A stretch of 64,000 nt of DNA from the NCBI RefSeq assembly GCF_026151205.1, contig NC_087075.1, forward strand, positions 13,963,628 to 14,027,627, given 5' to 3'. The DNA is from Bolinopsis microptera (taxonomy: Eukaryota > Ctenophora > Tentaculata > Lobata > Bolinopsidae). Position 1 is the stretch's first letter. Every line of letters starts with the position of its first letter. Under the pieces are notes generated by a model. That model saw only the letters and a program-made list of their open reading frames with translations, was not told the DNA's origin and made no database searches. Position numbers and translations under genes: made by a program. Positions 26,501 through 47,110 of the stretch are shown here, piece after piece.

Positions 26501-29500
26501 AAAAGGGTCCAAAAGAAAATAGGAGAATGTCTGACAGAGGAGGAATCATTGAAACGACTGAAACTTGAAGAGGAGGAAAGGGCCAAGAAATCTGCTGCAA
26601 AGAAGATCAAAAACGATGACAGAACACTTGTTGAACCTACACCATGAAAAAAGCCCAAGGCTGCTCTAAAGAAGAAGATATTACTTAGTAGTGACTCTGC
26701 AGAAGATAACTGCCCCGTCGTAGATTCTGATGACCTTAGCACTGGTGATTGTGAGGATGAAGATGTGGTAGTGCCGATTGAAGTGGGGTCTTATTTAACT
26801 TTTTAATTTACCAGTTCAATCATCTCTTAGAAAGTGCTTTTATTGATTTAGACAAGCTATCTTGACCAAACAGATCTACCCTTATCAAAATGGGGTAAAA
26901 CGGACCATTTTTACAATTACTAAAGAATTACTTTATTTAGGCAATTACTATGAAAAAAAGGTCATAGAATGTGAGAACTAGGCATATATTTGCAATTATG
27001 GCTCGTAAAAGCAATCTACACGACAAAAAAATTGTGAATTTTTTTTGGGGTAAAACGGACCAAGGGCGTGGTTTTCTTGGTTAGAAAAGTTGAAGAACAG
27101 AAATTTGTATTGAATATTGTTTAGGACTTAGCCCCAAGTGCCTTAAATGTATTAACAAATCTAGATTAACAAAGAATGTGGAGTTATGTGTTGGTCCGTT
27201 TTACCCCATGCATGGGGTAAATCGGACCAGCTGACCAATTTTTTTGGAATGGGTGGTACACCTACTAAACGTTACACTCAAATTTTACTGTATACCTACC
27301 AATTTAGACAAAGGTCCAACTGGTAAATGGCATGTAACATTCTTCAACCAAGTCCTTCTGTTGAGGCAGGAAGTTTCAAAAACTAAAATATTGGTCCGTT
27401 TTACCCCCTCCTACCCTACCTTTGATACAATGAAAACACGTTCTCTTTTGTAGTTTGTAACATGCCAAGTTGCTGCCAGGCAACGACACATTGTATTATT
27501 CATGGCTCTTAACTAAGTAGCTAATAGCTTAAACTTGAACAATTCACGTTGACGTAGCACTTAGGGAGCGTTCACATTTTACGTCAGCAGCCGAGGGGAG
27601 GGGTGGGGGGGGTTGGAAAATACTGACGGGGGGGGGGGGGGGGGGGGGGGGTCTGAGCCTTGCTGACGTCAGCAAAAAATGCCTGAATTTTGGCAAACAT
27701 GAAACATTTTTTATGATTCAAATTCGGTGTACTCCACACTTACCACTCGGCCTCGTTATATGATCTTGGAGTCGAGGCCTCCCCTTTGAGATGCAATCTT
27801 GGAAACAGGGAACCTGTGCCTGTATCGAGAATGACAAGATGGGATATGGTTGCAATGCTACTGCTAACTACAACTATATGTCTACTCTACAGTCATCCAC
27901 CTTTTTTCAATCACCACAGTCGAGTTAATGTAACCAAACTCCAATTTCACTACAGCCGATATTTTAGCGGTTAACAAAACCCGTTAAAAATATTTCCTTG
28001 TGTTCTTAATAACGTCACACCCTGGACATTTTAATGTGGGGGATATTCGTCAAAAATGTCAATATTTTTTCATGTCCTGATATTTTTATGGTTTATGGAA
28101 CGTGTAATGTCATTATGATTGTGTAAGAAAAGAATGATTGGACAATGGACGGGGGGGGGGCTTATTGCCTCATTTGAATTATAGACTAAATCATAATCCT
28201 CTCTTCCGTTGACTCCAGAGGTTGTTCTTCCTCCAAGTTCCCCTAGAATATGCTGCATCTGCTTTCCTTGCACGGTTAGACATAAAAAGCCATTTTGTCG
28301 GTGAATCTTCTTCCATTTTCAGGGTCAAACTCATGATTTTTACGTCGATTTGATAATTTATAACTAATATAATAAAAACTCAAGTTCCAAAAAAACAGTT
28401 TTTACAAAGCCTTAAAAGTAATAAAATATCTTTTTTCCTGAAAATGGTAAAAATTATAAGCGGGTCATACTAATAAGCGGGTCATACTTATCGTTTTCAA
28501 TTTTCCACATTTACCCACATATTTCTTAGTATTAGTAATTCACGAATTTTATGATATCTTAAATTCTATTTATATATAATGCTAAATCGCTGTTCATGAG
28601 AAATTTTGTGATTCCGCGAGTTTTTGTCATCAGCTTTCCATCCATAATAAATGTTCAAAATTTTATCCATAGCAACAAATACACTAAATACTGCATATAA
28701 TAAATAGAAAAAACTGTATTGATTTTACCTAAGCTAAGCAAAAGAACTAACAGTGCTGGGAACGACAGAGAAGAGTTTCAAGAGAAGAAATCTGCGGAAA
28801 GTCTTTATCGTCATAGTGTAGATATAAAAGTTTGACATGATATTCAGCACCATTAAGAAATAGCTTATTCTTTTGAACTTCTCATGAAACCATTCTGGTG
28901 GATCTTCAGTCATGAAACTTTCAACAATTGTAGTATAAATGCTGTACGGGAAAGTTGAAATGCAGTAGATGACAGCAGTGAGGACTACAGTGAGGGCTCC
29001 TTGCCATGGAACACTTCCTTGGACACGTCTAGCAGATATCCCTGCATCAGCTAGGTACTTCAGTGTAGGAACTGTTGTTCCTACGATAATTATGTTTGGA
29101 AGTAAAGCAGAAAGAAATCCAGTTAAGGGCAATATTTTGTTCCAAATATCAGAGTTATACCCGTATTGACAGTTGTAGATTATGTAATCGAAGTCAACAT
29201 CATCCTTGTCTACAGCGGAGAAAAGTATTGGTAAGATAAGGTTGAAAGCCCAGATGAAGCTGCAAACTTGATGAGCTCTTTTTGTCGACCAACTTGCTGC
29301 TCGGAGAGGATATCTGAGTAGAAAGAACTTGCTTGTAGTGAGAACTGCGATGAGGGACATGCGATGAGGGACATACCAACAAGTAGTTGCCGACATATAC
29401 CCGAGCATAGCAAAGTGTTTTTCCAAGGACCCACGAGTTGGCTAGCAAGGAGACTGCCCCAGAGAAGGGTGTACAGATAGTCGAAATGAGATCAGAAGCT

Positions 29501-32500
29501 GCAATGTGTTGAATAAGAGTCAGTATGAATTTGTTGACTTTGAAGGCGTCCTTCTGGAAGGATGCAAACAGAATCAGAGTATCTCCGATTAGACTTGACA
29601 AAACACCAAATAGATGATAGGCAGCCCAGGAATATCTCTCTGCATTGTTCTCTATCCCGAATCTGATATCCGAATATAGTTACTTGAAATGGTCATGAGA
29701 GGGACAAGTTGTTCATCAGCAGTATTGCCGTAAAACCACAATTGTAAAGATAAGCCAATTATGAAGTACTGAATTGTCAGATACAGCGGTCAATATTTTA
29801 TGCACCACAAGGTACTAACTAGCAGTGATTGTCAGACAGAAAAGAATGAAATGTTCACTAGGTGCAACGTGCTAAAATGTCAAAATGTGCTAAAATGCGG
29901 TAAAAAGTGCTAAATGTGTCTAAGGACGGGCTGAGGACACGTACGAAACGCTGTATCTTCTTTTTCAGCTCAAGGAAGATATTGTCGCGTATTTTACATT
30001 TTTTAGTTCTTTGTTTTAGGAGAATTAGTGGGGGGGGGGGGGGGCTCATGTTTTTTGTCCGTTCGGTACCCTATATTTTCAAAACGGACAAAAAATAGAG
30101 CGGACAAAAACGGACAATAAGGACAAAAACGGACAAGAAATAACAAAAATGGAAAGAACATTTAGATGCTTCCTCCTCTTCCTCCTCCACCTCCTCCTCC
30201 TCTTCCTCCTCCTCCTCCTCTTCTTCCTCCTCCTCAGTCCTCTTCCTGGGTCCTCCTCCTGGGTCCTCCTCCTCCTTCTCCTCTTCAGTCTTTCTCCTCC
30301 TCAGTCTTCCTCCTCCTCCTCCTCCCTCTCAGTCGTCCTCCTCAGTCGTCCTCCTCAGCCATCCTCCTCAGTCCTCCTCAGTCCTCCTCCTCAGTCCTCC
30401 TCCTCCTCCCCCTCCTCAGTCCTCCTCCTTTTCATCCTCCTTCTCTTCCTCCTCATCCTTCCCCTTAGTCCTCTTCCTCCTCAGTCCTTCTCAGTCCTCC
30501 TCCTCAGTCCTCCCCCAGTCCCCCTCCTCCTCCTCCTCAGTTCTCCTCAGTCCTCCTTCTCAGTCCTCCTCAGTCCTCCTCCTCCCCAGTCTTCCTCCTG
30601 GGTCCTCCTCCTCCTCCTCCTCCTGGGTCCTCCTCCTGGGTCATCCTGATCCTCCTCAGTCTTCTTCCTCTTCCCCTCCTCAGTCCTCCTCCTACTCCTA
30701 CTCCCCAGTCCTCCTCCTCCACAGTCCTCCTCCTCCTCCTCCTCATCAGTCCTCCTCCTCCTCATCAATCCTCTTCACCAGTCCTCCTTCTCCTTCTCCT
30801 CCTCCTTCTCCTTAGTCCTCCTCATCCTCCTCATCCACCTCCTTCCCCTCCTCATCATTCCTCATCAGTCGTCCTCCTCCGCCTCCCCTCCTCCTCCTCA
30901 GTCCCCCTCTTCAGTCCTCCTCCTCAGTCCTCATCCTCCTTCTCCTTAGTCCTCCTCAGTTTTACTCCTCCTCCTCCTCCCCCTCCTCCTCAGTTCTCCT
31001 TAGTCCTCCTCTTCCTCCTCCTCCTCCTCCTCATCCTCCTATTCAGTCCGCATCCTCGGTTCTCCTCAGTTCTCCTTTCTCAGTCCTCTTCCTCCTCAGT
31101 CTTCCTCCTCCTCCTCCTCAGCCCTCAGGTCCTCAGTCCTTCTCCTCCTGAGTCGTTCTTCTTCTCCTCCTCCTCCTCCTCCTCCTCCTCCTCCTCCTCC
31201 TCAGTCCCCTCCTCAGTCCCCCTCCTCAGTCCCCCTCCTCCTCTTCCTCACTTTCATCTCTCAATAATTTGTTCAATTTATAATTATTGTTGGTGTTATT
31301 GTTTACACAATTTATTGTTATACTAAAATGTTTTTAAACGTATTTGAGTCTGACTCAAAATGTGCTCAAGAATCTTTTGGCTTAACAGAGTTTCACTCTC
31401 CAGTAATAATAATATGGAAAAGTTGTTACATGATATTTTTCATTAAAAAATTCCCTTTTCATCCCTTTTTATGTTATTCTTTGTACCTAATTGAGGATTA
31501 AAAGTTTGAGAAAGGACCATGGTCATTAACCGGGCTACCCATTTCTGCAAATAGCCTGTTACAAATTGTGGAGAAAATTTAAATCAAAAGTTACAATTTT
31601 CGTCCGTTTTTGTCCGTTCGGTACCCTATTTTCTGAAAACGGACAAAATTGAACGGACAAAAAGTAAAAACGGACAAAAAATAACATGAGCCCTCCTACT
31701 CCTCCTACTTCTCCTCCTCCTACTTCTCCTCCTACTCCTCCTCGTACTTCTCCTCCTACTCCTCCTACTTCTCCTCCTCCTACTCCTCCTCCTACTCCTC
31801 CTCCTACTCCTCCTCCTACTCCTCCTCCTACTCCTCCTCCTACTTCTCCTCCTACTTCTCCTCCTACTCCTCCTCCTACTCCTCCTCCTACTTCTCCTCC
31901 TACTCCTCCTCCTACTTCTCCTACTCCTCCTCCTACTTCTCCTCCTACTTCTCCTCGTACTCCTCCTCGTACTTCTCCTCGTACTCCTCCTCCTACTTCT
32001 CCTCCTACTCCTCCTCCTACTTCTCATCCTACTCCTCCTACTCCTCCTCCTACTTCTCATCCTACTCCTCCTACTCCTCCTCCTACTTCTCCTCCTACTC
32101 CTCCTACTTCTCCTCCTACTCCTCCTCCTACTTCTCATCCTACTCCTCCTATTTCTCCTCCTACTCCTCCTCCTACTCCTCCTCCTCATACTCCTCCTAA
32201 GAACGTTTTAAAAATCGTACACAATCATATTCACAATAGCATGTACCATAACATGGCAATTAAATCTGATGACGAACTATAAATGTATAATTATTGAATC
32301 TACACTTGAAACGCTCGCGACCATCATTAACCCTTGGGCTCACTGCAGGGCACCCACACATCTGTCCTTATCTTCTCGTGCAGTACCTCGTGTTTCTTAG
32401 CCGTGCTATAAGAATGGTAAAACCAACCCACAAAAGGCCCACACTTGTAACCATAAACTTTAAGTTTGGGATTAGGCACAATTTGGACCTTGTACCCCAG

Positions 32501-35500
32501 CAGCTCTCTCAGTCTGTTTACCAGATACCCCGTGTACGCGTCCTCCGGTCTGAAGGGTACCTGGTGAACACAGCTGGGTAAAACAAGTTTGATATTCAGC
32601 ACCATTAAGAATTAGCTTATCCTATTGAACTTCGCATGAAACCATTCTGGTGGATCTTCAGTCATGAAACTTTCAACAATTATAGTATAAATACTGTACG
32701 GAAAAGTCGAAATGCAGTACTAGGTCTGAAAAGTACCTGGTGAACAGAGCTAGGTAACTCCTGAAACTTGCTGGCCACATCACGTGAAAACACGTATCCT
32801 CCTCCGGAGCAGTATTTCCATTTAGGGTAACCATTGAAGTCTCCGTACTTCATGTTACAGTTGCCGGTGTAGTAGCGGTCACGTGGTAGAGCTATCAGGT
32901 CTGTGATCAGGACGGGCAGGTTGACGACGATGTCGTCGTCCGTTTTGACGATGTAGTCAAAGTCGTAGTGGTGGAGCGCCTGCTTGGTGCCCCAGAGTAC
33001 CTTGGTACAAATGATTAATAAATCAAATAATTAATATGCATAAAATTAGTAAGCATAAAATTAGGAAACCCAAACCATACCCGTGACCGTAATTAAGAGA
33101 GGGCATAAAATTAAGAAACTGCGGGAAGGGGTTTCTTAATGTCCTGCTCTCTTGATTTCCTCTACTAATGTACCTTGTATTTGAGAGCGGTCTTGTGTTC
33201 TCTAAGATTGGATATCATGTACATATCGTCGTGTTCTTTAAGCTCGTCGTAAAACTCCTGGTCAAAATCACCGCTATCAGTGTAGGAGCCGAACAAGAAC
33301 ATTACCTTGATTCTCTTGTATTGTTCATCGATCGAGGTTAAGTTATTCCATCTATTAACGTTCATCCATGTTCGACGAATAGCATCCCTCACGTTAAAAC
33401 GTTGCGGGTGTGACGGTATTAAGAACACAATGAAATATTTTTCACGGGTTCTGTTAACCGCTAAAATATCGGCTGTAGTTAAATTAGAGTTCGGTTTCAT
33501 TAACTCGGGTGTGATGATTGAAACAGGTTGATAACTGTAGAGTAGACATATATTTGTAGTTAGCAGTAGTATTCCAACTATGTCCCATCTTGTCAAGTTT
33601 ATTGATACCATGTCGCTGAAATAAGTACCTATGATCCTTTTAATTTAAAGATTTTAGTTTAATTCAAATTCAATTTGAGTCCGATTCAAGTTCAATAATT
33701 TAAGTTCAATTTAAAGAAGATTATAGCATATATCTAGTCAAACAAATGAAACTGCACAACATTAAAAGATGTCTGTTTTCGTGTTTCGCTTATTTGCAGA
33801 GCACCAATATTCAATACTTTACCATACATTGCACACATTAACATTACAGCATGTTATACTATTATAGTACAAACGTGAGGGTTCCACACTATTATTATAA
33901 TAGTAATAACTATAATTATTATACAAATGACACTAACAATTACAGGTGCTGGACGTGTCCTAGCTATACACATTGACAATGGGCTGATGCGTAAGAATGA
34001 GAGCACTCTGGTGGTCAAAGCGCTGAAGGCCCTCGGTCTTGATGTAAAACGTGAGTCTGCTGTTGGTACCCATTTTCCTGCCCCGGAACATTGCTTCCCA
34101 GCAAGGACAAAAGAAAATCGCGATTATTTAGGCCAAAATCTCGAAAATCGAAGCGAAAGATAATGTTTTTGCACGAATAGAATTATGAATTAGGGGTGGA
34201 CTGGTTTGTAGGGTAAATGTAATGACTTGCTAGTTGGTTTGTGTGTACGACTCAGATGCAGGGGTGGTTACTGTTGCCAGCATTATGGCATCCTTTGTAT
34301 AAGTTTTTCACTATTGATTTGATTTGATTTGAAACTTTTACAAAATAGCAAGTATACAAATGTACAGCAATTCGAACAAACATATAAAATGGGCCGAAAT
34401 GTATAAATGCTAAAAAGCGTGGGTCAGTGAAACAAGTACAAAGGACAACTTTCAGAACAGGAGTTTTTTGGCCGCCCAAAGTCTCAATAACATCATCTCC
34501 ACCTAGTAATAAAATTATGAAATGTGAAAAGTGTGAAACAATCAAATAATAATGTATGTATATAAACTATGTTCGTAGAATTATTTCCTTTACCCTCATG
34601 AGTTTTTGTCCATATTGTGTTCGCAAAGGTATGCTATAAAGTTATAATATAGATTAATTGTCAACTGTCTTAACAATTGATCAATGTTCCCATTGTTCCA
34701 AATCTCACTTAACAAATTTGTCGTAGAGAATGGGAAAAATTATTTCCTTTACCCTCTGAGTTAAAGGAAATAACTCATGAGGGTTATTTCCTTTAACTCA
34801 CGCGATTCCGCACGTGCCGCGATTTCCTTTTGACCTTGCTTCCCAGAGCCTCAGTAGAGTTAGAGTGAAGGTTTTGGTATGGGATTAGAGTTATGATTAG
34901 GGTTGGGATCAGAGTTAAGGATAGGGTCCTGGGCTACAAGCTTCTTAGGACTCTTTTATAACTATTTTACGTTCAGGTTCTTAAATCCTCCCTATTTTAG
35001 GTGTTGATTGCGCGTACAGGTTCCTAAATCCCCCCTATTTTAGGTGTTGATTGCGCGTACAGGTTCCTAAATCCCCCCTATTTCAGGTGTTGATTGCGCG
35101 TATAGGTTCCTAAATCCCCCCTATTTCAGGTGTTGATTGCGCGTACAGGTTCCTAAATCCCCCCTATTTCAGGTGTTGATTGCGCGTACAGGTTCCTAAA
35201 TCCCCCCTATTTCAGGTGTTGATTGCGCGTACAGGTTCCTAAATCCCCCCTATTTCAGGTGTTATTGCGCGTACAGGTTCCTAAATCCTTCCTATTTCAG
35301 GTGTTGATTGCGCGTATAGGTTCCTAAACGGTAAGACGTGGGTGCACCTGGAGGGATGTAAGAACGCTCAGCTGAGTGAGTGTTTGAACACTGTGGTGGA
35401 TCCTGAGCAGAAGAGGAGGATCATTGGAGATGTCTTTATGCAGGTATGATCAGTTTGTTACATTAATTATCTTGTATGTTTGATCTTATATTAAATTTAT

Positions 35501-38500
35501 ATTGTAGTTATTTCCCTTATTCGCTTCTTTTAACAATGATGTTTAATTTTATTCTTGAAGTAAATGGCTCACTGTTTTGCAACTGGCAAGTATTCATCGA
35601 CTTCAAAGTTCAATCGGATAAAACAATCACCTTGGATTGCTTTTGATTATTTAACTAATTCATAATTAAAACCCTAGATAATGTCGGAGTTGCTAAACGA
35701 TCTTGACAAAGACAAGTTTGTTCTGGCTCAAGGAACCTTAGCTCCTGATCTTATAGAGTCCGGGTCTAAACTATCCTCTTCCATGGCTGACACCATTAAA
35801 ACTCATCACAATGACAGTCCTCTTGCTAGGGAGTTCAGGAATGCGGTAAGGTATTGTTCGCGACCTAAAGAATTTATAAAAATATTTATTATTACTAATA
35901 TTAGTAACATGTGCTATATTATTATCTCTTGAAATTTCAAGGATTTATCTTCCTATTTGGGGATAATTTATGGAAAACAGCTAAGTTGTTTTGTTTAATT
36001 AAGTATCTTTCAGGGGAAAATAATAGAGCCTCTGAGAACATTTTATAAGGATGAGGTTAGGGAACTAGGGAGAGAATTGAGCCTTCCAGCTGAACTAGTT
36101 AACAGACACCCTTTCCCAGGTAATGTATTAGACAAGTGTTGTAGTGTTGTAGTGTTGTATTAAAGAAGTGTTGTAGTGAATTTTTTCCCTACTCTTGCCG
36201 AAGGCAAAAAGATCGTAGGGAATAAGTATTCGGGTTTGGATATATGAGGTGGCCCGATGGACCTGCGTTGATAACAAAAGTCTGCTCCTTCGCAATATAG
36301 ACCACTCCCCTATCATTATGTGTAATGTGTATAGGAAGCGTCTGTTATGCTGCGCGCGACGCTAGCCATGTGTTAATTAATTACAGTGAAATTCCTCCTT
36401 CGCAAAGTTATCTTCCGCAATCTTCTGGATTCATTTATTGTTGATGCGCGGCGCTACATTCTTACATTGGTCAAATAAATCGTCAATTTTTACCATGCAC
36501 GAATCCCACTCATTTATAAATAACATAGTATGTAAATATGTTGCACTTTTTTCCAGTCACACCTTTCACTCAAAAGAATTAAAGGTATACAAGTACATCG
36601 TAGGGAAAATTGATCGTGCGTGGTTTAACCGCGGCGAAATTCTTGTTATATCGATCTTTTTAGGTACATGTTATAACCAATCTGATGGATCCGATGTGGT
36701 AATTTTTGGAACGAATAACAATCATTCAGTATACCAAACATCTATCAAACCAACTATACTTTCAACAGCCTATTTAATTTGCCAACTTAACAACTATTAA
36801 CGGTTCTTTTGCGATAGTCAAAACGCGACAACTAGCGCTGGCCGCTGGATGGCGACAACTAGCGCTATCCAGCGCTAGTTGTCGCCATCCAGCGCTAGTT
36901 GTCGCCATCCAGCGCTAGTTGTCGCCATCCAGCGCTAGTTGTCGCCATCCAGCGCTAGTTATCGAACTGTTTTCTGCGATGGCCAGTTGCGCTGGCCATC
37001 ACAAACTATCGGGTGCGACAGTGTCGCATAGCCAGCGTTATCCAGCGCTAGTTGTCGACAACTGGATAGCGACAACTAGTGCTGGATGGCGACAACTAGC
37101 GCTGGATTGCGACAATTATCGAAAATTTATATTTTGCGCTGGATAGCGTTAACTATATTAACTATATTAACTATATTAACTATATTAACTATATTAACTA
37201 TATTAACTATATTAACTATATTAACTATATTAACTATATTAACTATATTAACTATATTAACTATATTAACTATATTAACTATATTAACTATATTAACTAT
37301 ATTAACTATATTAACTATATTAACTACAGGGTGGGCCAAAAGTCAGTACCCATACGTTGGCCTTAATAGCTCCGCCGTGTTTTATATTTGAGAGATGTTG
37401 CAGATGGCATACTTTACTTACTGGTTCGAGGATTCCGTCGTCAAAATTTGAAAATTCGAATATTTTAGACCACGCCCATTCAATATTAAAACACCTATAT
37501 TGTTTTCTCTGGACATGCTGAACGCCTAATTTTTTCAGAGACGGTAAATTATCAAATGTTGCATATGATCTGAAAACATGAGGCAAAACAGATTAGAAAT
37601 GACGAAGTTATCAAGCATTTTCTGTATCTCGTTAACAAAATTGACTGGGTGATTATGTGACACCGTGACACGACACCTTAATTGGGCACCCTTAACAATT
37701 CCCATGTTTAACGGGGTAGTTAACGGGGTCACCTTATCACGTGATTAGGTAAACCAATCACCTGATCACACGTAATGAATAAACTCATTATGCTTCATAT
37801 CTCGGTCATCTGAGAAGCTACAGTTCTAATTCTTTCAGGACAAACGTAATTCGAATGGCCAAACACAATTCAATAACATTTAGCTTGATCTGACTATCCA
37901 AACTATCAAATAAATGTGAAAATGAACCTCCATTTGAAAAAAATGAACGCGAATATTTTTCGAGTTGACAAATTCCTCGAACCAGTGGTGGTAGTAAGTC
38001 ATACCAGAAAGAAGTATTTAAATTGGGCAATCAGTGACTGAGCTATAAAGGCCAACGTATGGGTACTGACTTTTGGCCCACCCTGTATATTAACTATATT
38101 AACTATATTAACTATATTAACTATATTAACTATATTAAAAACTTCTCAGGTCCAGGTTTGGGTCCCAGGATAATATGCCAGTTGGACCTTTACCCTTGGT
38201 ATTTGGAGAATTATAACGACTTTAACAACCGACTCAACCTTATCTGCTCCTATCATCGACTTCGAACCACTGTTGGTTTCTGTTTTCTGTTTCTGTTTCT
38301 GTTTTCTGTTTGTTGGTTTCTGTTTTCTGTTTCTGTTTCTGTTTTCTGTTTGTTGGTTTCTGTTTTCTGTTTTCTGTTTTCTGTTTTCTGTTTTTGTTTT
38401 CTGTTTTCTGTTTTCTGTTTCCATGAAGGATAGTCCTTTAATGAACTTCCATTTAAAATAATTATTATAGTTATTTTATGGGGGAAGATTCAAACAAGGC

Positions 38501-41500
38501 ATACTTTTGCTTTTACAAATATATATGACAAATTTTCTCTCTTTTTTATTAACCAATTAATAACAGAAACACCTTTTTCTCTCCTCAGCAATCTCAGATG
38601 TTAAATAGCTTAGAGGCCCAGCTGACGGACGCTAAGAGGGAATTCCTGATCAGTTTAAAGGACCATCCTAGAATATACCCAGTGTTACTGCCCGTCAGAA
38701 CTGTGGGGGTACAGGTAAATCCTAGAATATACCCAGTGTTACTGCCCGTCAGAACTGTGGGGGTACAGGTAAATCATAGAATATACCCAGTGTTACTGCC
38801 CGTCAGAACTGTGGGGGTACAGGTAAATCCTAGAATATACCCAGTGTTACTGCCCGTCAGAACTGTGGGGGTACAGGTAAATCATAGAATATACCCAGTG
38901 TTACTGCCCGTCAGAACTGTGGGGGTCCAGGTAAATCATAGAATATACCCAGTGTTACTGCCCGTCAGAACTGTGGGGGTCCAGGTAAATCATAGAATAT
39001 ACCCAGTGTTACTGCCCGTCAGAACTGTGGGGGTCCAGGTAAATCATAGAATATACCCAGTGTTACTGCCCGTCAGAACTGTAGGGGTCCAGGTAAATCA
39101 TAGAATATACCCAGTGTTACTGCCCGTCAGAACTGTGGGGGTCAAGGTAAATCATAGAATATACCCAGTGTTACTGCCCGTCAGAACTGTGGGGGTCCAG
39201 GTAAATCATAGAATATACCCAGTGTTACTGCCCGTCAGAACTGTGGGGGTACAGGTAAATTCTAACTTATCAGCTGGGGAGAACATACAGTTAATTAGTT
39301 AATTAATTAACTAATTAAATTACTAATTAATTAATCAATTAACCGTCTCCACTGTCCAGGGTGACGGGAGGACGTACAGTTACGCTGCAGCCTTCAGTTG
39401 TGAAACAGGAGCTCAAGTTAAGTGGGATGTCCTCAGTCATCTCACGAAGCTAGTCACAATGCTCTGTCCTAATGTTAACAGGTTATTTTATAGTCTAAAT
39501 AATATTTATTATTTATATATCTAAAGATTATATTATTCAATCATTATATTATTATTATAATTTTGTACATTTTGTGAGGTCGGAAAAATCGGAAAAATCA
39601 GGGGGAGGGGGGGGGGGTAATGTTATAATTGTTGGCCGATCATCTAACCTCCACACTGTCCAGATGCTGTTTCGTGTTCGGTGACAAGATTGAGGGACCA
39701 GTACGTGACATAACACCAACACTCCTTAACCCCGGTGCTATCTCTAGACTCAGGGTAAGTGACGTCATCATAGTCCCTCGTGACGTCATATAATATTAAA
39801 AATGTTTTGTGACGTCACAAATTATATTAATGATGAAATTAAAGTGGAACTAATGTCACGTGATCACTGATCACTCAGGAAGCAGACAGTGCCGCTATGG
39901 ACATGTTGAGACAGCACGACGCTCTGAAACTGGTCAGTCAGATGCCAGTAGTGCTCCTTCCTCTCCACTTTGACCGGTAAATATCTCTCTGACTATAACC
40001 ACGTGACTATAACCAATAACCATTCAACGATAACATTATTAACATAATTTATTTTTAGGTTCAGAACATCTCGCTTACCTATTGTTCGTCTTCTTCTAAT
40101 CTCAGTTGCGACAATTTAAGAGCAAACCGCATAACTAATTGATTAATTCACTTAATTAATCTAATAATTAATAAACTAACTTAATAAACTAATTAATTTT
40201 AAACTAAAATAACTACCTTATTACTAATCAGCTCAAGTAATTAACTAATTACAGATAATTATATACTGTTTACCGTCAGAGCAAGTCGTCATGACCCCTC
40301 GACAAAGCACTCGATAGTTCTTCGGCCCTTCGTTACCTCGGACTTCATGACAGGTATACTACAATTCGATTAATTAATGTACAATTAGCGTTAATTAGTA
40401 AACTTTTAGTAAAGTAATTTTCATTAAGTAGGGCAGTAGGGGAATGTGTCAATATGTATGGAATTTGTGCACACCAAGTTTCCAGTCCTTATCACTTCTT
40501 GATTTCTCGAAAATTGCTGTTCTGTTATGATGCTTCCTCACGAACTTAACAAAGGGTCTCAATATTCGGAACCGACTTTTTAGTTTTTTCTGATAGAGAT
40601 GAGTAAGTTCTATTAGTTACTCTTAGTCCCATCGAAAAATTTTGTTCCTGAACCAAAAGGTCAGCGCTGATGGGTAACTAGTAATTGTATTGTGCTAGCG
40701 ATTTTACATCGCGCGTTCTGAATATCGAGTCTTATCTATACGCGTAGTTAATCGAAAATCTCTCTTCTCCAACAGTTTTTAATCAATCACCCTGAAATTT
40801 CCAGGATAATATGCTTTAAGGAATATTTAAAAGAGATTGTCTAGACAGAATTTTTTTCCCGATCCATGACTCAAAGTGCCGACTCATAATTGATAGAGTA
40901 TTATTTCGATTTTCGAGTTAGTATTACTATTTTGCACAGATCCGTTGTCATATCAGGTTGCATAAACAATAAACATAATATGGTTACATAGAAATATACA
41001 AGATTTTCAAATTCAATATGGAATTAACTGGGCGGTGCTCGGCCTATAATCACTCCGCCATATCTGCATGCTTAAAAACAGATTGTATGAAATAAGACAA
41101 AATACGCCGTCACGGATTGGGAAATTGAGCGGCCATCCACAAAAGAAAAGCGACCGCATTTCTTGTTTTATAGATTTTGAAAATCTTGGACCTTTGCCAT
41201 AAATAATGTCAATAGCAGATGTAATTTCTGAGAAGCGTGACTGACTTTTTTGTGCAGATACTTAACAATATATGTTAAATCATATTTTTAATCATATTTA
41301 AAAATTCGATTATTTACCGACAAAATTCTGTTAAAATAAACGTGAAACAAAATTAAAGTGGAAAAAGTCACATTTTTTATGGAACACCCTGCACATGATG
41401 TAAATTTGTCCTCAAAAGTTTTCTTTGAACTTAACAAATTTGTTTCCGGGGTTTTATTTTTATTTTATTGAAATTCATACGGGTTTTACGATTAACCTAA

Positions 41501-42875: not shown

Positions 42876-45070
42876 TCTCCCCACTCCTGCGACCACCTGC
42901 ACTCGCAAATATACGCAATCGTGAAACTATGCACTCGCGAAAACATGCACTTGCGAAAACGTGCACTCCTTGCAAATCTGTGGACTCGCTTGAGTGTTTC
43001 AGTATTATTACTGTTTAAAGCAACTAATTTGTTCTTGGAATCGTTGGATTATATTATGCCTACCGGAAATGTATGTTTACTTTTGGGGGTTAACTTATAG
43101 GTATCTTGTTGTATAAAATGGGTAAACTTTGCTTTTTCTACGAGAAAAGGATTATTTGCAATATGAATTAGTGAAAGTTCACGCTCGTCGGGTAGATGTG
43201 TCATCCCTCATGTTGACAATTCATCGAAAACTATTTTGAATGTCATAATTTGGGGCGAAAGTTCTAGATACATATAGGACTTATTTCTCATTGATTCCCA
43301 TTTGAAATTCTTTTCTTTTCTTCTGCTACCTCCTGAACTTTGGGTGGTATTGACCTGACACATTGGGATACTTGGGATAATTGGGATAATTGGAATAATT
43401 GGGATAATGGGATACTTATAGGGTTAATGCTTAGACCGAGTGTGAAGATATGGTGCAGGACAGCGTGAATTTATCACTGATCCAGTCTAGAGTTGTGAAA
43501 TAGCTTTGTTTTGAAAAGTGGCATGTTAATGGTTTCCTATGAAACTTAACAAAATCCAAGCATTTGCGATTATGTTATTCACAAGATTGAACCCCGAATG
43601 GATAATGAATTGCTAAGTTTTCTGATTTGTAGCTTATTGTTTTTGTAAAAAGTGTGTTACCGCTTGGATTTTGTTGTTGATATCGCAAAGAATTACAGGA
43701 TTGTCGAAACATACTAATCTACGATTATTTCCTTCTTTGCACAATTTGTATTTTCTGGAAAAACTAGATTCCAGAAGATGTATCGAGTTTGTACCGAAGA
43801 AAAAAAAGAGGTAGAATTAACCATATTTTAAGCGCCCATGTGCTCCGTGTTTTAAGTTTCACGGCGTTCGATTCTAGGTATTTTAAGTCGTTTTGACACG
43901 AGCAGTTGCCTTATAATATTAATACGCATTTGTTATTACGACGTTTAAATCTCGTTTCATTTTACTCTTTATATCAGAATGCCACGCAAAGTTATTTTAC
44001 GTGATATTCTGAATTAAATTATTATTGATGCGCGGCGCGCTGAACTCATCGAGTAATCTTTAATTTCGCCATGTACATTGACGGACTGCAAGAAACAGCG
44101 GGTAATATTGCTAAATACTGTGGGCTTGAAGATGAAAAGAAAACAGAGATCATGGTTTTTGGGAAACAGGAAAGATACGTCTCAGCACCCACTCGGAATG
44201 GTAATACTGTACTGTCATGACGTGTCATCTTCATTAACGGGTGTTACTCGTCGCGTAAGACTAAGTTATTTGTTCCAAATATTACCGTCGACGGGTCCAA
44301 CTCGGCGCGCGTCCTGGTCACTGGTAGGATATAAACCTACAACATTTTCACAACACCCTGCGTCAATTAAAATTGCGAACGATCATATAAATATTATGTT
44401 ATAAATATATTATAATGTAAATGTTTATGTTGACGCTAAACCACTGCAGAAGGGTCGTTAGTTGTAGAACACTGCCGGAATCAACCTTTTTCGTCACCAT
44501 TTGGCATTCACGTCTGTATCCAGGATTGAGAGGCGGTTCTTTTGCATATATTATTGGAATATTTAGTTGTACGTGTAGCTTTTCCAGAAAACTCATAACT
44601 CAGCGTCCCAAGCTAATTCTCATTTAACCCCAAAATTGGAACTGCAGAGTATTGACTACAAGTACAAGCTCACAAGTGTTAGACATTAGAATTGGTCCGA
44701 AATGGTTTATCGATTAAATTTAAGTATAACTATACAGAGGAACTGTATAACATTAATAACAAGTGTTTGAATTGGTCCGAAATGGTTTATGTCGATCAAG
44801 TCCACATGTATAAACACACTGTATACGGTAAGATTTTAAATATTCCCAGACATGAAATTGGATGTGGAGACTTTTTATACATGTTCACATGTTTTGATGT
44901 TTTCTCTCCAATGTGCCTATGGTGAACATTTCATTTCTGTCCAATAATTCAGCTAGTTCACAACACTGGAATAATTTCCTGGATCACCGCTGTTTAAAAT
45001 GATCACGTGAGAGCGAAAACATAATCACGTGAACTGGCAGCGTGAGAAAATCGCCACATTTGATATTAAA
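42876..45070. other. Region downstream of GMPS
   Basis: GMPS 3' UTR followed by spacer. A GGGATAATT-type 9-10-bp repeat lies at 43366-43425 and short ACTCGCGAAA/ACTTGCGAAA repeats at 42898-42965. A diverged duplication of GAATTGGTCCGAAATGGTTT lies at 44690-44800. Confidence 0.45.
44070..44222 (+). pseudogene. Possible LINE reverse transcriptase scrap
   Basis: Plus-strand frame reads MYIDGLQETAGNIAKYCGLE, then DEKKTEIMVFGKQERY before a stop. The pattern L..A...I..YC...KTE.MVFGK is seen downstream of the catalytic core in non-LTR reverse transcriptases. About 50 residues only. Confidence 0.45.
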
Positions 45071-45073
45071 TAA

Positions 45074-45233
45074 TATGGGGTCGTTCGCAGATAGCTATTG
45101 TGTCAAAATTGTGTAATTTTGACAGAATAGCTATCTGCTTATATGTGTAAATTTAAAACGGATTACGGAGGGGGGGGGGGGGGGGGGTAAAAATGTTCCA
45201 AACAATTATTACGTAATATGTGAACGACCCCTA
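45074..45233. mobile_element. MITE with GGGGTCGTTC ends and a G homopolymer
   Basis: Ends GGGGTCGTTCGCAGATAGCT and TAATATGTGAACGACCCC are inverted; inside are the sub-repeat ATAGCTAT and about 19 consecutive Gs (45170-45187). Same family as 51731-51872. Confidence 0.65.
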
Positions 45234-45598
45234 CAAATTATTCAGTTATATTACTTCCTTGAGATAACTTTGCGATTTTCTACAAAATATCAAATATATC
45301 TATATTAAAATGTATTAAATAATGATTGATGTCAGATCATCAGCGGTGCTAAAATCAAAATCCAAAGTCCAATTAATTAGAAGAAATCCGTTACCACTAC
45401 CAGTAAATTCATTAAAACCAAAAAATATCAATACGTTAGCCGTTAATTGTTAATGACACTAGGGGGTTTTAAAATGACAAAGTTTTTAACGTACGCAGTA
45501 AACCACTTCAGTTCGCAGTAAACCACTTAGCATTTGTATCGTTTTTAGCTTGTTATCAGCAGTCGTTATCTGCAAGTGTTACACACCACGCTAACCTG

Positions 45599-46429
45599 AT
45601 GAATTTCTCTGTGGACTTACTACACACAGTGGAAAAGGATATGCAATCGGAGATCGGAAAGCTCATGAAAGCCGTGAATGTCTCGTCATTCTCTGATATC
45701 AACCAGGGTGTTCTACAAAAACTGCTTAAGGGTCCGCTTGTAAATTTCCTCAGCAGCATAGTAAATTTAATGGACATCAATATGAAGCTATGCAAGTCTG
45801 CAGCCAGCAAGATAGATCAGATGAAAACAGAACAGATAGACATGCAAAAGCAGCTGATAAACAGACAGCAGAATCAGATCGAATCGGTGCAGAAAACTGT
45901 AAAGAATGAATTGAAAAGTTGGGCAGATGTCGTCAAGAAGAATAGCGCCCAAAACAATCAGCTGACAACAAAAACTGTGAAAGAAGCCGTGCGATCAGTG
46001 AATAAAGAAGAAGAAAGATCGAGAAACTTGATTATTTACGGTTTGAAGGAGACGGAAGAAGGGGAGTGGGAGGACGTATTAGAGATGGACCCTCTCCCGG
46101 ACTTTTTCAAGTCAGTTTTTGCTGAGGCCAACTGTCATTTTCCTGACACGGATGAGATATGCAGGATTGGGAAGAAAGTTCCTGAGAAAACGCGACCGAT
46201 CAAAGTTCAGTTACAAAGCTCTAGCGATGTGGACATTATACTAAGAAACGCACACAAACTTAAAACAAGTGATGATTTTAAGTCAGTTTATCTTGCACCG
46301 GATAGGACAAGGGAGCAGAGAATACTACACAGTGGACTTGTCAAACAGATGAAAGAACTAATAAAGCAGGACAATAGCAAGCGTTATTTTATCAGAGACA
46401 ATAAAGTTAATTGTGTTAGTGAGAACTAG
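45599..46429 (+). CDS. LINE ORF1-type protein, 276 residues
   Basis: Intronless frame related to 5811-6755. The N-terminal 110 residues look helical, with a Gln/Lys-rich stretch (KQLINRQQNQIESVQKTV) that could be a coiled coil. Then the family blocks follow: SVNKEEERSRNLIIYGLKE, PDTDEICRIGKKVPEKTRP, KVQLQSSSDVDIILRNA, VYLAPDRTREQRI and a terminal RYFIRDNKVNCVSEN. It probably binds LINE RNA. No reverse transcriptase follows in the next kilobase, so this is another ORF1-only copy or a domesticated relative. Codons are intact, which suggests recent activity or selection. Confidence 0.72.
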   Translation: MNFSVDLLHTVEKDMQSEIGKLMKAVNVSSFSDINQGVLQKLLKGPLVNFLSSIVNLMDINMKLCKSAASKIDQMKTEQIDMQKQLINRQQNQIESVQKTVKNELKSWADVVKKNSAQNNQLTTKTVKEAVRSVNKEEERSRNLIIYGLKETEEGEWEDVLEMDPLPDFFKSVFAEANCHFPDTDEICRIGKKVPEKTRPIKVQLQSSSDVDIILRNAHKLKTSDDFKSVYLAPDRTREQRILHSGLVKQMKELIKQDNSKRYFIRDNKVNCVSEN

Positions 46430-47110
46430 AGCCTTATCTACAAGTATTCTGACTTGTTATCAGAATTTATGAACTTTAATATGTTATGTTCACTTTCGTT
46501 ATCTACGTGGTGATACAGTGTAGTTTTTACATAGTTAGTATTTTAATCTGGTGTAAGTGGTGGCCGTTGTAGTCTAATTAACCGTTTTTAACGAGTTTTT
46601 TTACGATGCAGTATTTTGTGAGGAGATTTAGGCAGCATGAACTGTGGCTCATATTTTATTATTTAAGCTGCTCTACGAGCACACACGCTAGCTAGATGGT
46701 TTTTAGATAGTTAGGAGTATTAGTTAGTTAGTGTAAATTAGTATCAGTTAGGATCTGTTAGCACACAGAACTGTTAGTTTTCGCGAAGCAGGTCTGACTT
46801 TCATATAATTATATATTCTTATAGTGATAGACTTCATCATATAAATTTATTTTGAACTTAGTAACAATTTCAGGGAATAAATAGAAATTTAAGATTTCAT
46901 TTCTATTCTAATATTCACGTATATTAAATACAATTATATTGTTATGTATCATATGATTTTGTAAACATTGGCCGGTGTACAAAAACCGGTCCCCAAACAA
47001 ACACGCAGTACGAGCGTGCTAAATAACTCTACAATCCACAATCGATCCTCGAAAATGTTCTAAAAGGACCCCATCAGGCATCAATCATCATGCCAATGCC
47101 ATCAGTTAAA
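46430..47110. other. Non-coding tail after the second ORF1
   Basis: AT-rich, no frame. Contains short TTAGTTAGTGT repeats around 46705-46760. Could be the element 3' region; the boundary was not found. Confidence 0.35.

Follow-up and report, generated by a model that had tools for sequence, protein, structure and literature searches.

A predicted intron of a Bolinopsis microptera GT31 gene bounded by two copies of one exon segment and filled with sequence from a nearby receptor gene

Seven mechanisms of intron gain have been proposed, among them tandem duplication of AGGT-containing sequence and break repair (part of PMC3443670). A passage of PMC4974935 describes the AGGT model together with a case from potato, and gains assigned to this model of Rogers, according to passages of PMC4974935 and PMC3443670, include those in ATP2A1 of vertebrates and in genes of Schizosaccharomyces. 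The new introns of Daphnia, as treated in sections of PMC4202315, have end repeats of 4–12 bp shared with the exon, and their sources were rarely found (rRNA, mitochondrial sequence and weak hits). Filler DNA was discussed for Drosophila, for which candidate sources were reported, some of the matches being weak (extract of PMC3296678). Sections of PMC4683709 and PMC9169325 report a source in other genes for two of 40 new introns of Dictyostelium discoideum, which had no end repeats, and a source for none of 168 new introns of Caenorhabditis, respectively. Most new introns are thus without a traceable source; the GT31 gene described below still shows where the intron sequence came from, where it was joined and which piece of exon was duplicated. 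Titles and abstract beginnings of the literature on ctenophore intron gain and introners, on filler-DNA intron gain and on introns of Bolinopsis microptera contained no report of this GT31 case, and the main text of a paper on introners (PMC9860276) contains none of the terms "ctenophor", "Bolinopsis" and "Mnemiopsis".

The window, that is, the whole stretch of 64,000 nucleotides analyzed (G000:C4:13963628-14027627, in a genome of 264.65 Mb), carries on its minus strand a GT31 glycosyltransferase gene (33611-32327) with three predicted exons and a predicted product of 311 amino acids, which contains the Galactosyl_T domain (PF01762; E 4.9e-20, 72.6 bits against a cut-off of 23). Exon 1 (33174..33611; 146 codons by translation), predicted intron 1 (33001..33173), exon 2 (32737..33000; 88 codons), predicted intron 2 (32561..32736; 176 nt, phase 0) and exon 3 (32327..32560; 77 codons and a stop codon, including PEDAYTG) are all on the minus strand. 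Joining the predicted exons yields an open GT31 frame, and the junction of exons 2 and 3 agrees with the family. The removal of intron 2 by splicing, which would restore the old mRNA, is predicted because the intron has a GT-AG pair, because its loss gives back the family sequence, because it is AT-rich (GC 0.36, against 0.52 and 0.49 in the exons) and because its length breaks the frame (176 mod 3 = 2). If the intron were retained, 18 codons would be read past the donor, followed by a stop. A competing CCCAG is located 13 nt before the acceptor. A T-to-A change fixed in intron 2 creates CTAAT 52 nt before the acceptor; as other branch-like motifs occur in the intron, and also in its source, we do not claim CTAAT as the branch point.

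The locus has an inverted second copy (B; the window contains copy A) 160 kb away, with the same intron 2 at C4:13836011-13836183 (173 nt). The B arm (C4:13817145-13861339) aligns with window positions 5187-48066 in pieces mostly 82–99% identical, with many indels. The two arms of this large inverted duplication lie 107 kb apart and diverge in a patchy manner, some stretches showing no change. The copies differ at 3/438 positions of exon 1 and 1/264 of exon 2 (4/702 together), at 10/234 positions of exon 3 (six altering, three silent and one in the stop codon, B being one residue longer), at 4/172 positions of intron 1, at 6/173 of intron 2 plus 3 nt, and at 6/127 of the 3' flank; there are no differences at all in 33600-33999 and 34400-34999. 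Over the whole gene dN is 0.011 and dS is 0.026, but divergence as patchy as this makes the excess of changes in exon 3 a poor guide to selection. The donor of predicted intron 2 reads GTACTT in A and GTACCT in B, both departing from the usual GTAAGT. The sequence is gap-free at both ends of the B arm, which favors a real inverted duplication over two haplotypes; the patchy divergence also suits two haplotypes, and the finding on intron 2 is independent of this choice.

The repeat-filler structure described below is also present on C12, in an error-rich, raw-read-like form. This copy was rejected as an independent paralog: it corresponds to window positions 28449-47003 with raw-read-like errors (over the gene, small insertions totaling 359 bases in 149 short runs, against 7 bases deleted and 113 mismatched) and adjoins an 11.5-kb run of N, and the segment C12:8530826-8553395 (L025, L026, L028) looks like an unpolished long read left in the assembly. 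As the B and C12 copies have the same structure, it is not the product of a single assembly join. Elsewhere in the window, at 34970-35320, about eight tandem units of approximately 43 bp (by eye), most of them with TTTCAGGTG and CAGGTTCC, form a minisatellite of acceptor-like sites that ends at an apparent exon of the neighboring gene.

Intron 2 is bounded by direct repeats of 35 bp. The upstream copy (32723..32757, minus strand; TTACCTAGCTCTGTTCACCAGGTACTTTTCAGACC on the sense strand) consists of the last 21 nt of exon 2 and the first 14 nt of intron 2 and contains the donor CACCAG/GTACTT (the slash marks the predicted splice site), while the downstream copy (32547..32581, minus strand; TTACCCAGCTGTGTTCACCAGGTACCCTTCAGACC) consists of the last 21 nt of intron 2 and the first 14 nt of exon 3 and contains the acceptor CACCAG/GTACCC. 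The copies are identical at 31 of 35 positions, and CACCAG/GTAC and CACCAGGTAC occur in both. In 2,000 local Markov shuffles the best match was 22/35, and no pair of at least 31/35 at a spacing of 60–400 was found in 20 Markov-shuffled windows. The real window, when unfiltered, gave 11,656 position-spacing hits at this level, mostly of low complexity; with the complexity threshold set to 22 distinct 3-mers, the GT31 repeat was one of seven clusters left, and of the remaining six, five show more than one spacing, like arrays, and one (24943) is a minisatellite. Hence an AGGT-containing exon segment has been duplicated and provides both the predicted donor and the predicted acceptor. The earlier note had described the last GT31 intron as bounded by two diverged copies of such a segment, splicing between which restores the family motif; the repeat was confirmed against the shuffled controls, and the predicted splice agrees with the claim in that it gives the open frame of 311 codons and, at the junction, the same product as in uninterrupted relatives.

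Both copies of the repeat run unbroken through the exon-exon junction, and therefore exons 2 and 3 were contiguous, intronless DNA when the duplication arose. A junction-spanning repeat of this kind reveals the intronless starting state without the need of a relative. The exonic halves of the copies retain SSVHQ and VPFRP, and the halves predicted to be intronic have substitutions at which the family residues would be lost: S would become C in the downstream copy, and P would become L in the upstream one of copy A (all by eye).

The sequence between the repeats (32590..32719, minus strand) is derived from a rhodopsin-type seven-transmembrane (7TM) receptor gene (28734..29601, minus strand), of which it matches positions 28838..28967 (minus strand). 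The alignment of 32719-32590 with 28967-28838 covers 130 bp at 93.8% identity (E about 1e-55), in the same orientation and at a distance of 3.6 kb. Beyond these 130 bp there is a 5-nt deletion between two TCA, followed by eight more matching bases (by eye). In copy B the receptor sequence abuts the repeat directly, and copy A has an extra GTA there. The junctions share one or two bases only, with an extra T or so at the right one (by eye). A filler copied from the nearby GPCR gene in the same orientation had been proposed, and this part stands, with its size corrected from 136 to 130 bp and the distance from 3.7 to 3.6 kb. The 7TM identity comes from the B copy of the receptor and from the paralog L012, both of which have the 7tm_1 domain; a Pfam search with the A-copy ORF gave no family. 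The frame of the A copy is broken at 29340-29400, where it has a 14-base tandem duplication and lacks a stretch present in B, whose own frame is open. Immediately beyond the downstream end of the receptor gene, at 27832-28058 on the plus strand, the beginning of the GT31 gene occurs a second time in decayed form (86.5% over 230 aligned columns); this copy and the GT31 gene itself are inverted relative to each other, with the receptor between them.

A heuristic genome search with a 501-bp query around the intron matched the filler only to the A and B copies of the receptor and to the intron copies in A, B and C12, and it detected no multi-copy element with defined ends. A wider receptor query matched many paralogs, at lower identity, and the receptor family is large, with at least 44 DNA matches and at least 121 matches to the related protein P0086, a named Bolinopsis microptera protein to which this genome corresponds at 100% over residues 1-313 and by which the genome is assigned to this ctenophore. 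Intron 2 therefore contains inserted DNA from elsewhere, as do break-repair introns of the Daphnia type.

The direction of copying can be read from two sites. In the receptor frame intron 2 has the stop codon TAA where the receptor (TAT) and its relative P0031 have tyrosine, and at another site intron 2 has N, as does P0031, where the own receptor now has K. The copying thus went from the receptor to the GT31 gene, and each of the two sequences has since acquired changes of its own. The claim that the donor locus of the captured filler is still identifiable is borne out by this direction and by the 93.8% identity. Five differences between intron and receptor, in 131 columns (by eye), are common to A and B, so the gain had already happened when these copies of the locus separated. 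At two residues intron 2 and the own receptor agree with each other against P0031, which weakly suggests that the gain is perhaps younger than the split from the species of P0031. When polarized by P0031, one further site (A/E/V) is ambiguous and two are silent; the receptor paralogs of the same genome align poorly at the filler and are of little value for polarizing its changes. The gain, called recent in the earlier note, can therefore be dated only in relative terms, between these two splits if the two residues are a guide.

Next we consider relatives at the intron sites. After subtraction of six A/B exon rows and two decayed-copy rows, 17 of 25 rows represent GT31 paralogs from the same genome, 16 of which (all except L051) were examined. 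In fifteen of these 16 a single open frame runs through the two intron sites, the sole exception being a 176-aa ORF on C13. P0001, P0002 and P0003, which were compared as proteins and are 53–61% identical and hence not close, are uninterrupted at both sites as well, and the GT31 gene groups with them in a tree of 42 rows, in which five of the 16 own paralogs were left out (support 99/96). P0003 is on a 520-kb contig and thus probably genomic; P0001 and P0002, on short contigs, could be transcripts. The closest relatives, P0161 and P0162, are 89–91% identical and comprise the exon-1 ORF only; the intronless site is seen, at the protein level, in the paralogs and in P0001-P0003. The distant clade of P0023, P0030 and P0028 (branch 1.21 for the P0023 clade) has an apparent intron two codons (6 nt) upstream of the intron 2 site: P0030 has a frame-keeping insert of about 33 residues that is absent from P0023, and the homology of the ORF P0028 (199-kb contig) stops at the same place. 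An intron at this site in distant relatives, considered beforehand as evidence against a gain, was encountered in this near form.

Intron 1 also is a gained intron, to judge by its structure, which resembles that of a miniature inverted-repeat transposable element (MITE). It is a small inverted-repeat element inserted at TA, with TA on both sides, and the inferred empty site, AAATACAAGG-TA-CTCTGG (AAATACAAGGTACTCTGG), encodes KYKVLW of the family. The donor GT is contributed by the exon (AAG/GTA) and the acceptor AG by the end of the element (CCAAG/GTA). The intron is missing from the open paralogs and from P0001-P0003. Similar elements are found at C2:11496929-11497032, C1:24172334-24172461 and C2:21423654-21423759; their ends pair at 11/12 positions at C1 (L058) and 9/12 at L056 (C2:11496929), compared with 10/12 in the B copy and 9/12 in the A copy of intron 1 (by eye). 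Terminal inverted repeats, a target-site duplication and dispersed copies, as in introner-type gains, are thus present. The exon-1 ORFs of P0161 and P0162 end in ...KYKVP, as copy B does when read into intron 1, which makes it very likely that intron 1 is present in these relatives and was gained before the split from them. In copy B only (L021, C4:13834001-13844000), intron 1 contains a second, different inverted-repeat element of 525 bp with the ends TACCTTARTTCCCAAAAATTTG (by eye).

We consider it probable that intron 2 arose in a single event of DNA repair or replication; it is most likely a hybrid of AGGT duplication and of filler DNA at repaired breaks. In such an event, synthesis through the intronless GT31 exon would have halted immediately after ...CAGACC and resumed on the same strand of the receptor gene, 3.6 kb off, for about 140 nt, before going back to a point in the GT31 exon that lies 35 nt upstream of the exit, so that 35 nt would have been copied again. 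These nucleotides bear CACCAG/GTAC, and the upstream copy would now serve as the donor and the downstream copy as the acceptor. Alternatively, a 35-nt staggered break may have been filled with a templated insert. Template switching of such a kind is called FoSTeS or MMBIR, and the order repeat-filler-repeat, the same-strand donor at 3.6 kb and the one or two shared bases are as it would leave them. Plain tandem duplication is insufficient, since the copies are separated by about 140 nt of another gene's sequence. The proposed birth by AGGT tandem duplication is thus right as to the duplication of an AGGT exon segment in an intronless ancestor and has to be amended as to the arrangement, the copies being not tandem but separated by a templated insertion. 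A broader reading, to which we give an even chance, is that template switching is an intron route of its own. On this reading the GT31 gene, in a family whose other members mostly have one exon, acquired intron 1 from a TA transposon and intron 2 by a template switch, two unrelated processes whose footprints can both still be read. If so, a replication or repair fork that copies a nearby gene and re-copies some exon on its return would produce, whenever the re-copied stretch contains AG/GT, an insertion that is spliceable at once and neutral for the protein.

It is also conceivable, if unlikely, that the insertion is unspliced or poorly spliced and that the gene, in its last part if not as a whole, is decaying into a pseudogene; the repeat would then have produced the splice pair incidentally. 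The donor is unusual, residue 140 is K in copy A where copy B and all ten relatives compared have R, and the protein searches gave no close full-length match, even though the database does hold a Bolinopsis microptera protein. In addition, exon 3 has diverged between A and B nearly as much as the 3' flank (4.3% and 4.7%), in copies whose divergence is patchy, several upstream stretches of 200 nt having none. Against this decay, the three exons are open in both copies, with no indel over 936 nt, and exon 3 retains the family motifs. Of the five scorable altering changes in exon 3, none affects a completely conserved column and one affects a column at 0.8, which is a weak argument as only 29% of exon 3 columns reach 0.8. 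The extra 525-bp element in intron 1 of copy B suggests that introns of the GT31 gene are removed. A succession of two steps, in which a 35-bp tandem duplication came first and the receptor fragment then entered precisely where the copies meet, would produce the same final sequence. Repeat and filler have diverged about equally (3/35 and 5/131 shared differences; Fisher p 0.37, counts by eye), which agrees with one event but does not separate it from two steps. This course appears quite improbable to us, because it requires a second event precisely at the junction of the copies, and because the duplication of 35 nt alone, which is below the usual size of an animal intron, would have been too short to act as one.

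The near intron of the P0023 clade bears on the view that an old intron existed at this site and that a piece of the receptor entered it later, the intron of that clade being its relative after sliding. The insert of P0030 two codons upstream and the loss of homology of P0028 at the same place are in its favor; an old intron cannot, however, produce two copies of an exon-exon junction that has no break. The relatives with which the GT31 gene groups (P0001, P0002 and P0003) are uninterrupted, and the P0023 clade is distant with its site 6 nt off, all of which makes this history very improbable. Insertion of a mobile element with a 35-bp target duplication has in its favor the direct repeats flanking the insert and the origin of intron 1 of the same gene from an element. 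We regard it as scarcely credible: the filler, matched only by the receptor and the intron copies in the heuristic search, is the middle of a coding sequence, and a target duplication of 35 bp is unusual. A single repair or replication event thus remains our preferred explanation, with the template-switch route and the splicing of intron 2 as what we infer along with it.

Compared with the described systems, GT31 intron 2 combines features of two known models. Like the AGGT tandem-duplication gains, as these appear in the passages cited above, intron 2 has a duplicated exon segment whose AG/GT would give both splice sites and leave the protein unchanged; unlike in those gains, the copies are not tandem, and the body of the intron is filler from another gene and not duplicated exon. 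The direct repeats at both ends, for which a staggered break may be the cause, resemble the break-repair introns of Daphnia, from which intron 2 differs, going by the sections of PMC4202315, in its repeat of 35 bp instead of 4–12 bp and in having a single-gene donor 3.6 kb away. In intron 4 of DDB_G0273471 of Dictyostelium discoideum the body was likewise copied from another gene, there from a coding end and its flank; according to the relevant section of PMC4683709 that intron has no direct repeats and no fitting model, whereas the repeat at GT31 intron 2 points to a mechanism. Intron 1 resembles the DNA-transposon introners treated in part of PMC9860276 in its inverted ends, its target duplication and the joint contribution of element and target to the splice sites, and it differs from them in the target duplication of 2 bp (TA) instead of 3–9 bp and in the few copies found. 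The locus also provides a recipe for searches, namely introns with one exon-junction repeat at both ends and a body matching a neighboring gene.
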